A stretch of DNA of 50,181 bases from Haloarcula mannanilytica. GTDB lineage: Archaea; Halobacteriota; Halobacteria; Halobacteriales; Haloarculaceae. Within the stretch, counting starts at the first letter, position 1. Each line of letters starts with the position of its first letter. The stretch is from positions 1 to 50,181 of the forward strand of contig NZ_BIXZ01000014.1 of assembly GCF_005406125.1 (NCBI RefSeq), written 5' to 3'. The translations under genes and the position numbers were made by a program. This document shows, in pieces, positions 45,352 to 50,132 of this stretch. The notes beneath the pieces were generated by a model. It did not search any database. It had not been told where the DNA came from and worked only from the letters and a program-made list of their open reading frames with translations.

Positions 45352-47313
45352 TTAGAGCGATGTGATGCGATTGAAGTCGTCGTCGAGCGCCTGGGCGTCC
45401 TCCGGCAGGAGGGCGACGACCAGATGCTCGGCGTAGTCGGCGAAGTACTCGACGAGTTCGGCGATCCGTGCCGAGTCGATGGCCTCCAGCGAGTCAAGCA
45501 GCATGAACGGAACGCTCTCGTGGAGGTCATGCACCAGATAGCCCGCAAGCGCGAAGATGAGCCCCGTCACTTCGCGTTCGCTCTCGCTCAAGTGCTCGAT
45601 GGTGTCTTCGTAGGCCGCGCCGTTCTCCGTCGTCCGGACGATGTGGAGTTCGAACACCGTTCGGTCGACCTTCTGACGGCCCTCGCGAACGGTCTGCTCG
45701 ACGCGCTCGATCCAGATGCGTTCGAGGTTCTCGTACTCCAGAATGCCGAGAATGGCGTCCATGTGCTCGTTGAACTGGTCGACAGCGTTGGCCTCGATCT
45801 GGTCGATCTTCGTTCGCTTGTCGGTGAGTTCATCCACTAGCGCATCGCGTTCCTCGCGGAGGTCGTCGGCCTGCTCGACCATCGCTTCGATTTCCTCGAT
45901 TTCCTCGCTCACGTCGTCGAGGTCTGATTCCAGGCTGTCGATCTCGAACTCCAACTGGTTGGCCTCCCGGTGCAGCGAGAGTATCTCGTCGAAGTCCTCG
46001 GATTCGAGGTTGTCGACCTCGTCTTCCAGTGACTCGACATCCTCGGTCAGCTCCTCGCGGCGATCCTTCAGGGAGGTGATCTGCTCTTCGCGGCGCTCGA
46101 TCTCCGTTTCGGTCTCCGTGATCTTTCGCTCGACGTTCTCGCGGCGGCGCTGCTTTTTCTCGGCCTCGCGCTGGTCGGACTTGAGGTCGTCGAGCTCTGA
46201 TTTGATGTCGTTGAGGTCTTCGACTTTCTGCCGGCGGAGGTCCTGCAGGCGCTCGACGGTGTCTTCGATCTGCTCGCGGTCGACCGTCGACCCACACGTC
46301 CAGCAGACGACGGATTCGCCGTCGTCGCCTTCGAGGAGTTGCTCCGTGACATCGCCATCGGAGCCCTCTGGCGCGTCTTCGAGCGACTGGATGACGTCGT
46401 AGTCTTCCTCTTCGAGGCGCTCCTCGTTGTACTGGATGAGGCTCTGCAGGTCGGATATCTCGCTGTTCAGTTGCTGACGCTGGTCACGCAGGGTTGCGAT
46501 CTCGTCTTCGAGGTGCTGCTGGTCGCCCATCGGCGTCTCGGGCAGTTCGTCCAGTTCGTCCTTGAGATCGGACCGTTCGCGTTTCAGCGAAGAAATGCTC
46601 TCTTCCTGGGCCTCGATGTCCCGGCGGACGGATTCGAGGTCGGACCGCGTCGAACGGAGTTCGTCGAGCTTCTCTTCGAGCACGTCCTGTTCCTGGCGGC
46701 TCTCCTCGATATCCCGGCTGCTGTTGTCGATTTCCTCTTCGCGCTCAGCCAGTTCCTCGCGTTTCTCCTCGATCTGCTCGCGGAGTTCGGTCCGGCGCTG
46801 TTCGAGGTCCGGGAGGTCACGCTGGCGGGATTCGATAGTGGCGAGTTCGTCGTTTATCTCGCCTTTTTCCTCCTCTAGTTGTTCGACCTCAGAGCGGATG
46901 GCGTCGATGTCGACCGGCCGCATGATGATTTCGCGGAGGTCGTCACCTCGTGCCACGGAGCGGCGCGCCTCGTTGGTTTCGAGCAGGAACGCGAACAGGT
47001 CGGCGACTTCAGGGTCGTCGAGATAGCCCTCGCCGTTGAACTGGACGGCGTCCCCCGCTCGCGTGAGTGTGCGCTCGTATATCTCATCCCCGTACGTGAG
47101 GGTAACGCTCCCCTCATCGGCATCGCCTTTCAGCGTCGCCTGCGTGCTTCCCATCGCCGCCATGATAGATTGCAGAAACGATGTCCGGTTCGTCGCGTTC
47201 TTGCCCGTCAGGACCGTTACGCCCGGCGGAATATCGACTGTCGTCTCGTCGATCCCACCGATATTGGCCACTTCAAAGTGGGCGACACTAGATTCTTTCT
47301 TTGATTCTGCCAT
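45352..47313 (-). CDS. Archaeal SMC-like coiled-coil ATPase (Rad50/Sph-type)
   Basis: A 653-residue protein. The N-terminal ATPase part has a degenerate P-loop, TGKNATNRTSF (about 36-46), where the canonical Lys is Arg. Long Glu/Arg-rich coiled coils (about 125-330 and 345-545) flank a zinc-hook-like CWTC (Cys337, Cys340). The C-terminal lobe has a signature-like LSESEREVTGLIFALAG and a Walker-B-like PFMLLDSLEAID (about 605), with Ser where Glu is usual. These traits match archaea-specific SMC-related (Sph-like) proteins from memory. The TATA box 23-30 bases upstream fixes the start at MAESKKESS. A role in DNA organisation or plasmid maintenance is inferred. Confidence 0.82.
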   Translation of the reverse strand: MAESKKESSVAHFEVANIGGIDETTVDIPPGVTVLTGKNATNRTSFLQSIMAAMGSTQATLKGDADEGSVTLTYGDEIYERTLTRAGDAVQFNGEGYLDDPEVADLFAFLLETNEARRSVARGDDLREIIMRPVDIDAIRSEVEQLEEEKGEINDELATIESRQRDLPDLEQRRTELREQIEEKREELAEREEEIDNSSRDIEESRQEQDVLEEKLDELRSTRSDLESVRRDIEAQEESISSLKRERSDLKDELDELPETPMGDQQHLEDEIATLRDQRQQLNSEISDLQSLIQYNEERLEEEDYDVIQSLEDAPEGSDGDVTEQLLEGDDGESVVCWTCGSTVDREQIEDTVERLQDLRRQKVEDLNDIKSELDDLKSDQREAEKKQRRRENVERKITETETEIERREEQITSLKDRREELTEDVESLEDEVDNLESEDFDEILSLHREANQLEFEIDSLESDLDDVSEEIEEIEAMVEQADDLREERDALVDELTDKRTKIDQIEANAVDQFNEHMDAILGILEYENLERIWIERVEQTVREGRQKVDRTVFELHIVRTTENGAAYEDTIEHLSESEREVTGLIFALAGYLVHDLHESVPFMLLDSLEAIDSARIAELVEYFADYAEHLVVALLPEDAQALDDDFNRITSL

Positions 47314-47335
47314 TATGGACATATAGTAGAAGAAG

Positions 47336-47343
47336 GTATAAAA
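47336..47343 (-). promoter_or_regulatory. TATA box of the SMC-like gene
   Basis: The minus-strand TTTTATAC lies 23-30 bases before the ATG at 47311-47313. The spacing favours this start over the in-frame ATG 9 bases upstream. Confidence 0.55.
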
Positions 47344-48047
47344 TGATACTGCACCGAGATGGTCAGTTTTGGCCGTCATATCGGCAGCCAGTCAATTCTA
47401 TGATTGGTTCCATAGATTTACCTCACGTATTCGTGGCCAACTCATAGATCGAACAGTAGTTACCTGAGACTTCGATGGCAGCCGCCTCCATCGTACTGCA
47501 TGACGAGTTCGTCAAGTCAGTTGCTTGGGAGAGGCAACTCCTCTTGCAGGTTGCCGTCACTGTCGTTGTCACAACCATGTTCGGATAGTATCCAAACCAA
47601 TGGAGTCCGAATGGACGGAGCCGAAGCATTGGACCGAACGGAGTTGTTCTTGATACCAATCTCCTTGCACACAAAGTGCGATTCAAACTATTCATGTTCG
47701 GTTCTGCTGTAGATACCATTTCAGTCCAAAGGCGTTCAATACGAAATCGTCTTAAATGACGGAATTTAGTCAGAAATAGATCTATACCATCCTAAAAAAT
47801 GAATAATACAATCAAATTAAATGGTAGTAGTGGTAACTAGCCAAAACCAAGATATATACTAGTGGATTTGGCCTCAATAAATCCAAATGAAATAGCTCGG
47901 GCAAGCCTGAGTTTACCAATCTGAAGATCGAGTCCTTGACGGAGCTGGTATCTGGAGAGCTGTTATTATCGGTTGGCCGTTGACGCATTACTCTACGCCA
48001 AAACTGCTATACCTGTTGCAAGAATTTCAGTCGGTTCAGTATTTATG
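47344..48047. other. Gap, increasingly AT-rich toward the partition locus
   Basis: Short open frames around 47420-47720 on both strands match no family I know. From 47750 on the sequence is AT-rich and leads into the palindromic repeats at 48048. It could hold plasmid cis-elements, but no iterons were seen by eye. Confidence 0.4.
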
Positions 48048-48078
48048 AATAGTATACTATCTTAAAATAGTATACTAC
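48048..48078. repeat. Partition-type palindromic repeat, copy downstream of parA operon
   Basis: Two copies of the 12-base palindrome ATAGTATACTAT (48049-48060, and 48067-48078 with last base C) are separated by CTTAAA. It lies just after the stop of the small partner gene. The flank ATTTATGAATAGT (48041-48053) recurs exactly inverted at 49503-49515. Confidence 0.75.
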
Positions 48079-48082
48079 TTTT

Positions 48083-48475
48083 CTATTCTAAAGACTGGGT
48101 TTCACGCGCTTGTTCGAACCGTTTGGCGACCTCATCCACGAGATCTTCTTCCACGACGGTCCGGAGAAGAGCATCCGTCATCTCCCGAACCACGATGTTC
48201 TGGTAGCCCTGCTGATTGAGTTCACGCTCCAGTTCGTATTTCAGCCACGAATCGAAGTTCTCGATTGTTTCCTCACGGGCATAGAACGGCCGCTGGTTGG
48301 CTTCTTCATAGCTGAATGCACTATCGGTCATCGGATCTCGTTGCTCGACGGACTCCCGAGAATGTGACTCTTCAGTCACCGTTGATTCGGATCCATCATC
48401 TGTGTCCTGTGATTCGTTATCTGGTTCATCTTCGAGCGTCTCCCCGAGATCAGCAAACGGATCGTCCTCAGCCAT
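48083..48475 (-). CDS. Small ParA partner protein (putative centromere-binding)
   Basis: A 130-residue acidic protein from the ATG at 48473-48475 (MAEDDPFADLGE). The first ~60 residues are disordered and rich in Asp, Glu and Ser. The C-terminal part (NFDSWLKYELERELNQQGYQ; VVREMTDALLRTVVEEDLVD) looks like a compact helical domain. Its start overlaps the ParA stop by 8 bases, so the pair is translationally coupled, and palindromic repeats flank the operon. By analogy with ParA partner proteins it should bind those repeats; no standard ParB signature is present. Confidence 0.7.
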   Translation of the reverse strand: MAEDDPFADLGETLEDEPDNESQDTDDGSESTVTEESHSRESVEQRDPMTDSAFSYEEANQRPFYAREETIENFDSWLKYELERELNQQGYQNIVVREMTDALLRTVVEEDLVDEVAKRFEQARETQSLE

Positions 48476-49415
48476 GGCGGACCACCTCCCCGGCTTCAAC
48501 GATGTGTGCCAATTCATCGAAACACTTCAGTTGGTCACAGTCTGGATCGTAGTCCAGCAGTGGCTTTCGTTCGCCGTAGGCTTTCGTGATGCTAGTACGG
48601 TCCCGAATGCCCGGTGAGGGGTTGCTGTCGCCGACATCAACAGCGTTCCAGTCCGTAATCCGCGCGAAATTTGGAATACGATCCTGGAGGGTATCGTGCG
48701 AATTGAGCCGTTCAAGCAGCTGGCGGTCCTGTGTTTGTTGGTCGATACGGCCGCTCAACATATTCGGAACCAAGGCTAGAACGTCGACATCCATGTGCTG
48801 CCGGAGCGGTGAGATCTGTCGCTCAATAGTTCGCTCTAGGCCAGCCATTGCCTCGTTCCCGGGAGCGAGGGGAAGCACAAGATTCCCCGTCGCGACCAGC
48901 GCATTGTCTGTGAGCCGAGACCGATAGGCCGGCGAATCCGTCACGATATAATCGTACATGTCCCCAAGAAGTGGATCGACGACCGCTCGTTTGAGCAGCG
49001 CAGAGGGCTGGAACACGTCGCCGACGACAATCTCCCGTTCAACCTGTTCTAAGTCCTCGCTGGATGGGAGAATATCGAACTCAAAGCCGGTATCATAGAC
49101 GACAGAAGCCGGGTCAGCATCGTCGAAGAAGACATCGCCAATTGTCTCGTCTGTGTTGTGATATTGATCATCGAATCCTAGGCCGACGGATGCATGGCCG
49201 TTCGGGTCAAGATCAATGAGGAGAGTGTTGTGGCCTTGGGCGGCCAACTGCCGGGTAAGGTTCACAGCGAGCGTCGATTTGCCAACGCCTCCCTTCAGCA
49301 TGCAAACCGAAACAGCACGAGAATTCCCGTTGGTTTGTCCCGAGTTATATGGGCTATTTGGACTATTCGTGCTATCTATACTATTCGTTCTATCTGAACC
49401 ACTCATACTATTCAT
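48468..49415 (-). CDS. parA: ParA/MinD-family partition ATPase
   Basis: A 315-residue ATPase with the deviant Walker A KGGVGKSTLAVNL (41-53) and LLIDLDPNGHASVGLGFDD, and DYIVTDSPAYRSRLTDN as the second acidic motif. It is typical of plasmid ParA proteins in haloarchaea. The N-terminal ~33 residues are Asn/Ser-rich (DRTNSIDSTNSPNSPYNSG), encoded by repeated ACTATTC-like DNA. The start is the ATG at 49413-49415 or 49404-49406. It is followed by an overlapping small partner gene, and both ends of the operon carry the same palindromic repeats. It should drive segregation of the replicon. Confidence 0.9.
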   Translation of the reverse strand: MNSMSGSDRTNSIDSTNSPNSPYNSGQTNGNSRAVSVCMLKGGVGKSTLAVNLTRQLAAQGHNTLLIDLDPNGHASVGLGFDDQYHNTDETIGDVFFDDADPASVVYDTGFEFDILPSSEDLEQVEREIVVGDVFQPSALLKRAVVDPLLGDMYDYIVTDSPAYRSRLTDNALVATGNLVLPLAPGNEAMAGLERTIERQISPLRQHMDVDVLALVPNMLSGRIDQQTQDRQLLERLNSHDTLQDRIPNFARITDWNAVDVGDSNPSPGIRDRTSITKAYGERKPLLDYDPDCDQLKCFDELAHIVEAGEVVRHG

Positions 49416-49458
49416 CAGTATACACCCCTCTCGACTTAACTTTGTGGTGAATAGTTTA

Positions 49459-49489
49459 GATAGTATACTATTTTAAAATAGTATACTAT
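49459..49489. repeat. Partition-type palindromic repeat, copy upstream of parA
   Basis: Two perfect ATAGTATACTAT palindromes (49460-49471, 49478-49489) are separated by TTTAAA, so the whole 30 bases is itself a perfect palindrome. It lies 44 bases before the parA start, over the expected promoter. It is thus both a possible parS and an autoregulatory operator. Confidence 0.8.
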
Positions 49490-49556
49490 CTTATTTAATC
49501 GCACTATTCATAAATATCGAAAATTTCATCAGTAGGGTCCAATGCCGGATTTTGTA

Positions 49557-49587
49557 GATAGTCTTCTATTTTAGAATATTATTCTAT
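49557..49587. repeat. Degenerate third copy of the palindromic repeat
   Basis: This 31-base stretch (GATAGTCTTCTATTTTAG...) matches 49459-49489 at 26 of 31 positions. It begins 98 bases further on, before the plus-strand hypothetical gene. Confidence 0.6.
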
Positions 49588-49677
49588 TTCCAAATAGCTC
49601 TATCTGCAGTTAGAATCTCGAGAGTACGGAGACTATCAAGGTGGATTTGTGTCACCTCGCGACTGGAGGTTCCCACC

Positions 49678-49965
49678 GTGTCCAATCCAGATAACGTTGA
49701 CAGCCGCGTTTTGCTTACTGAACTTGCAACCTACCAGAACCGAAAGCTCCTGCTCTGGCAACTCGCAGCCGACGGCCGCTCGTTCTGCGGTGTCCGATTC
49801 GTTGCTCGGGAACGCGACCTGCAGAACGCGCCCGTTAAGAAACAAGTTCAGGCCTTCGTCGACGACATGCTCTCAGATGGTGAGATCCGGCCAGAATACG
49901 ATGCGATGGCTGACTGGGAAGCGCTTGAAGCAGCCCACGGTGACACTGCCGACCAGTTCCTCTAG
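49678..49965 (+). CDS. Hypothetical small acidic protein
   Basis: A 95-residue protein from a GTG start (VSNPDNVDSRVLLTELATYQ). It is helical with no TM segment or signal, and contains LLLWQLAADGRSFCGVRFVA and VKKQVQAFVDDMLSDGEIRP. I do not recognise the family; a helical nucleic-acid-binding fold is possible. It is divergent from parA, and the palindromic repeats lie between them, so it may belong to plasmid maintenance. Confidence 0.6.
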   Translation: MSNPDNVDSRVLLTELATYQNRKLLLWQLAADGRSFCGVRFVARERDLQNAPVKKQVQAFVDDMLSDGEIRPEYDAMADWEALEAAHGDTADQFL

Positions 49966-50132
49966 ATAGGACTCCTCCGAAAGAGCGATTTTGTGTCGCC
50001 TCAGTGGCTGGAGGCTTTCCAGTATGTTGCCTACAGCCGATGTTCCGTTCGAACGGCTCTGGTGAATCGCTGGACAGCGTCGGTTTCGACCGTCAGAACT
50101 AGGAAGTTGAAGCGGGAAACCGCCGATGGTCT

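Follow-up and report, generated by a model that had tools for sequence, protein, structure and literature searches.

The parA operon of Haloarcula mannanilytica is bracketed and entered by an array of 6-bp half-sites, GAATAG/CTATTC, set in a 9-bp register, whose anatomy, conservation, register and constraint on codons we document here in the window (the whole 50,181-nt stretch analysed from contig NZ_BIXZ01000014.1) and in its relatives. The sequence evidence makes it likely that this array represents the parS centromere and the operator of a partition system that pairs a ParA-type ATPase with a small acidic partner. Arrays with the same 9-bp period are probably a centromere and self-control switch common to most of the related par loci sampled across one order, the Halobacteriales. 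A broader proposal, which we hold with about equal belief and doubt, is that haloarchaeal ParA/small-partner systems, whether plasmid-borne or, in some cases, located on chromosome-sized contigs, share a fixed 9-bp register with group-specific half-site words that separate co-resident replicons, and that in one plasmid clade the centromere expanded into the coding part of parA and into the partner stop codon, so that selection on the site writes the protein tail. The arrays offer a concrete family-wide centromere candidate for halophilic archaea, and the presence of an array on Halobacterium pNRC100 makes the proposal testable in an established laboratory organism. Our search of the literature, limited to open-access papers, found no account of such a 9-bp register array.

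Anatomy of the array in the window and in close relatives

Table 1. Components of the par locus in the window.
Feature	Positions	Strand	Details
Downstream block	48047..48088	.	Half-sites at 48047, 48057 and 48065; degenerate CTACTT at 48075; CTATTC at 48083-48088
Small partner gene	48083..48475	(-)	130 aa; candidate centromere-binding protein; overlaps the 3' end of parA; adjoins parA in relatives (family alignment)
parA	48468..49406	(-)	Walker-type partition ATPase; Pfam AAA_31 1.2e-27; PHROG ParA-like partition protein 6.8e-38
In-ORF array	49354..49413	.	9-bp units at 49354, 49363, 49372, 49381, 49390, 49399 (degenerate CCACTC) and 49408
Promoter segment between two arrays	49414..49448	(-)	TATA-like GTTAAG at 49435-49440; putative promoter role
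Upstream block	49449..49509	.	Half-sites at 49449, 49458, 49468, 49476, 49486 and 49504 in a single register; includes palindrome 49460-49489
Third block	49556..49597	.	Half-sites at 49556, 49566, 49574, 49584 and 49592 in a single register

The original prediction described a 30-base palindrome built of two spaced units, repeated on both sides of the parA operon. Such spaced pairs are indeed present, although they start one base later than was first noted. Upstream of the operon lie two exact copies of ATAGTATACTAT (49460-49471 and 49478-49489), whereas downstream an exact copy at 48049-48060 is paired with a one-mismatch copy, ATAGTATACTAC, at 48067-48078; the paired units are 18 bp apart, start to start. 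This arrangement exceeds chance: with up to two mismatches allowed, the window contains seven matches to ATAGTATACTAT, six of which lie at the operon, none of 100 dinucleotide shuffles produced as many, and the rest of the 4.2-Mb assembly contains a single further copy, with one mismatch. A degenerate third copy was also correctly recognized at 49558-49587 (units 49558-49569 and 49576-49587, with two mismatches to ATAGTATACTAT in each), as was the inverted match of the outer flanks, which agree at 17 of 19 positions between 48035-48053 and 49503-49521.

Taken as a whole, the segment 49460-49489 forms a perfect 30-bp palindrome, and the downstream pair (48049-48078) has one mismatch. The palindrome was nevertheless rejected as the repeat unit, because the upstream DNA of relatives does not keep it; it is a local special case of an array whose unit is the 6-bp half-site. 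The 18-bp repeat of the window is two steps of a 9-bp lattice, its two 30-bp pairs are adjacent half-sites that are nearly perfectly inverted by chance, and the third copy is simply another block of one array that also enters both ORFs. The blocks of the window do not share one continuous register, and the half-site at the stop codon of the small gene is one base off the register of the downstream block. The TATA-like element is located approximately 30 bp before the start codon and reads GTTAAG or TATAAG in relatives (alignment of 24).

Relatives of the operon were drawn from PLSDB and from GTDB genomes. The PLSDB relatives, with ParA proteins 80–93% identical and small proteins 64–89% identical, are on plasmids; several of the genome-contig relatives are located on named plasmids and the rest on draft contigs. 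The upstream DNA of these relatives keeps GAATAG and CTATTC, at 9-bp steps, but not the palindrome. Among 26 nonredundant related loci, the conserved unit is this half-site in both orientations on one 9-bp lattice: multiples of nine account for two thirds of the same-strand spacings no longer than 60 bp, and the opposite-strand half-sites fall on the same lattice. When the count was restricted to half-sites in the non-coding DNA upstream of parA (24 relatives), 350 of the 408 pairs no more than 45 bp apart (86%) kept to the lattice, as compared with 11% (sd 2%, maximum 19%) for random placement of the same number of sites; since the related loci share ancestry, P values overstate independence, and the figures should be read as a measure of conservation, not as a tally of independent events. 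In a scan of 195 genomes with a triple CTATTC unit, most strong matches were no more than about 2 kb away from one of these parA genes, and a reversed control pattern was rare. Two further loci deserve mention: a CTATTC array with the 9-bp step that is separated by about 90 kb from the ParA gene detected on its contig (G156 contig C29:329293-329723), and a decayed copy of the window-clade ParA, interrupted by stop codons, on one contig of 2.8 Mb (G132 contig C1:2561234-2562162).

The contig of the window has no match to Cdc6/Orc1 (Cdc6_C) that would mark it as a plasmid by its own evidence. Directly beyond the par cassette, a gene for an archaea-specific SMC-related protein was identified at 45352-47379 on the minus strand (NCBIfam ASRP, 693 bits), which is an inconstant neighbour among the relatives. 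On the other side, the similar stretches TGTGTCACCTCGCGACTGGAGG (49643-49680) and TGTGTCGCCTCAGTGGCTGGAGG (49988-50020) flank a 95-aa ORF without a family match, and a 19-bp inverted repeat (84%) with a 9-base loop near the contig end (50108-50154) is possibly the end of a mobile element.

Sites within the parA start and the partner stop codon

The parA start kept in relatives is the ATG at 49406, and use of the ATG at 49415 would give a 315-aa ORF. The sequence GAATAGyATG is kept at this start in 24 of the 26 nonredundant relatives. The seven consecutive 9-bp positions of the in-ORF array cover the first parA codons, as does the array in relatives including pNRC100, and encode an N-terminal Asn/Asp-Ser-rich tail of ParA. 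Codon choice in the tail differs sharply from that in the gene body: the AAT:AAC ratio of Asn codons is 99:15 versus 92:184 (P 5e-23), and AGY codons for Ser stand at 128:39 versus 116:265 (P 6e-24). Dipeptides N/D-S of the tail are written xxT-AGY in 102 of 116 cases, whereas AGY occurs in none of the 20 control N-S pairs just before the conserved RAVSV, a few codons on and off the array. ParA proteins of other clades start near their PRAVSV motif and have no tail, and therefore the extension of the array into the parA ORF belongs to the clade of the window.

The small gene lies directly downstream and overlaps parA by 8 bp in the window; with a simple motif rule, 75 of 87 loci yielded a partner ORF at the end of parA. 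In the window, its TAG stop codon (48083-48085) forms a CTATTC half-site together with the preceding GAA codon. All 31 genome-contig relatives in which the small gene is intact likewise end it with TAG, and the codon before the stop is GAA or AAA in every case; the two together make up the half-site opening the downstream block. TAA replaces TAG in one of the 20 window-clade loci sampled from whole genomes, and the background frequency of TAG is 5 of the 32 long ORFs of the window. The constraint imposed by the putative binding sites extends into both genes, at the beginning of parA and at the termination codon of the partner.

The partner protein of the window combines an N-terminal DPFADL, an acidic linker and a C-terminal helical domain. 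Across the family, the N terminus carries PF-[AD]-D-L, the linker is again acidic, and the conserved C-terminal domain centres on Q-x-P-x-Y-A-R and R-E-x-x-D-A-x-L. The 130-aa protein has no Pfam or NCBIfam match, and its sequence profiles gave only low-complexity or chance matches in PDB, none of them credible. AF2 models of the whole protein and of its C-terminal domain contain helices only, at low confidence (pLDDT 64-65), and a Foldseek search of PDB with this low-confidence model returned no match; a ribbon-helix-helix (RHH) fold is plausible. Relatives of the partner were also sought in viral contigs, and none were found.

The 9-bp period across Halobacteriales

We fetched 80 ParA loci from genomes across the order, read eight distant plasmid loci directly, and scored periods of 5–15 bp upstream of parA in 86 loci. 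The strongest period was 9 bp in 82 of them, and the other four have no 9-bp peak. In control sets taken from the window, the parA body and regions further upstream, 9 bp was the best period in 26/133, 12/87 and 15/83 cases, these controls being dominated by coding multiples of three bases. The core words vary by clade and include CTATTC in the clade of the window, TACCTA/TAGCTA, CCTAAG, TCTACT, TACGAT, ATCTAC/TGTAGA and others. Similarity of the core sequences tracks ParA identity, and co-resident systems differ in their cores (mean cosine 0.03); the second ParA locus in the genome of the window has unrelated words. Whether systems of one group avoid sharing a cell was tested statistically, and no significant effect emerged (P 0.29).

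This second ParA system (L049, G000 contig C9:4936-5760, together with L116-L124) possesses its own 9-bp array with ATGTAC/ATCTAC words. Genomes from several families encode an almost identical version of its 161-aa partner, which suggests that the element spread recently. Among members of one genus (g31), ParA/small-partner loci with 9-bp arrays (L100, L102, L103, L108 and L113) are located on contigs of 1.1-2.9 Mb, mostly chromosome-sized, and represent a candidate chromosomal partition system.

Proposed role and comparison with known systems

The locus shows type Ib-like features, namely a Walker ParA without an N-terminal HTH, an overlapping downstream small gene and iterated sites by the operon. 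Its ParA matches AAA_31 and CbiA, has its P-loop some 33-36 residues into the protein, and gave no Pfam match to an HTH domain. In the proposed mechanism, the small partner would bind the half-sites, and would probably do so as dimers that stack at 9-bp intervals via the conserved C-terminal domain. Because the blocks flank the TATA-like element, their occupancy by the partner should repress the operon by acting on the parA promoter. The partner coating the sites may also engage nucleoid-bound ParA, by analogy with omega/parS and ParG/parH, and the partition complex built in this way on the plasmid would be pulled by ParA. Plasmid groups would keep the 9-bp register and swap the core, which may keep co-resident systems apart. 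The original suggestion of a parS/operator set for the small partner appears to be the best reading of the sites, which accompany the ParA/small-gene operon through dozens of genomes and lie on both sides of its putative promoter, but with the half-site rather than the palindrome as the unit.

The position of the blocks on either side of the TATA-like box right before parA would also suit an operator that merely autoregulates the parA operon, the true centromere being elsewhere. We consider this unlikely, since a separate block lies at the operon end, remote from the parA promoter, and is kept down to the stop codon; a centromere fits this extra block better than an operator alone. Furthermore, the arrays are long, with up to about 17 CTATTC-like hexamers along one strand in one relative, and known RHH systems give the same repeats both roles (PMC9499535, PMC7308502). 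It is highly improbable that the array consists of replication-origin iterons bound by an initiator: the sites hold fixed positions at the start of parA and at the stop codon of the small gene, the cores change with the ParA clade, and orc1 is absent nearby in many relatives, as is any Cdc6_C match on the contig of the window, even though the arrays are AT-rich and orc1/cdc6 genes occur near some relatives.

Hardly any credence can be given to the palindromes as transcription terminators or RNA hairpins insulating the cassette. The segment 49458-49491 does score as a terminator-like hairpin, but such matches are no more frequent than in shuffled sequences, perfect palindromes are unconserved, the direct repeats of many relatives are unable to fold, and part of the array is coding sequence. 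Finally, the Asn/Ser repeats of the ParA tail might have been selected as protein, with the DNA periodicity there arising as a by-product of coding repeat expansion. Such a low-complexity repeat may serve ParA; however, the non-coding units have the same motif profile as the coding tail units, both site orientations occur outside the ORF, and the strong synonymous bias is not matched by the control N-S codons, which makes this explanation very doubtful. Selection on the DNA site accounts for the tail codons and the TAG stop better than selection at the protein level.

The centromere-operator reading has close parallels among known systems. The delta/omega/parS system of pSM19035 likewise has short non-palindromic contiguous repeats in mixed orientation that overlap the par promoters, and a ParA ATPase with a small partner, which is DNA-binding in pSM19035; at least four contiguous 7-bp sites are required there for ParA activation (PMC9499535). 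It differs in its RHH ParB and 7-bp WATCACW repeats, as opposed to the 9-bp register and GAATAG/CTATTC core of the window, where the array enters parA and uses the small-gene stop, and where the system is archaeal and an RHH fold of its partner is no more than plausible. In TP228 ParF-ParG-parH, a ParA ATPase also works with a small partner, parH consists of degenerate short boxes with AT-rich spacers, and ParG acts at the centromere and represses at an operator upstream of parFG, the same dual role as proposed here (PMC7308502). The box sequence and spacing are different, ParG has an RHH fold, and the sites of the window lie on both sides of the operon and within the ORFs.

Among archaea, SegAB of Sulfolobales resembles the window in having a ParA homologue, an overlapping downstream small gene (SegB, a site-specific DNA-binding protein) and sites that precede the first start codon (PMC5120986, PMC12284271). 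The SegB motif is a single palindrome, TCTAGASTCTAGA, scattered over the chromosome, whereas the lattice is mostly confined to the par locus; the arrays here have GAATAG/CTATTC or other cores on the 9-bp lattice instead of TCTAGASTCTAGA, and the partner showed no sequence match to SegB chains in the PDB profile search. HTH/CTPase ParABS does not fit, as no Pfam or NCBIfam match marks a ParB CTPase/HTH domain in the 130-aa partner, and neither does the three-gene cassette pNOB8 AspA-ParB-ParA, since the operon of the window has two genes and the next gene is the separate SMC-related one. In R388 StbA/stbDRs, 9-bp repeats, which are direct, surround the promoter of an operon for a binder and a ParA-like protein (PMC3098194); the stbDRs (TTGCATCAT) differ in sequence and have a 2-nt spacing that gives an 11-bp period, and StbB is dispensable for stability. 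In arrangement, the locus resembles par2 of E. coli pB171 (parC1/parA/parB/parC2), where centromere sites are likewise named on both sides of a parA-parB operon, as in the constructs of PMC4270457. The design as a whole resembles the omega/parS or ParG/parH arrays, but it has a register of its own and a partner for which neither Pfam and NCBIfam nor, credibly, PDB gave a match.
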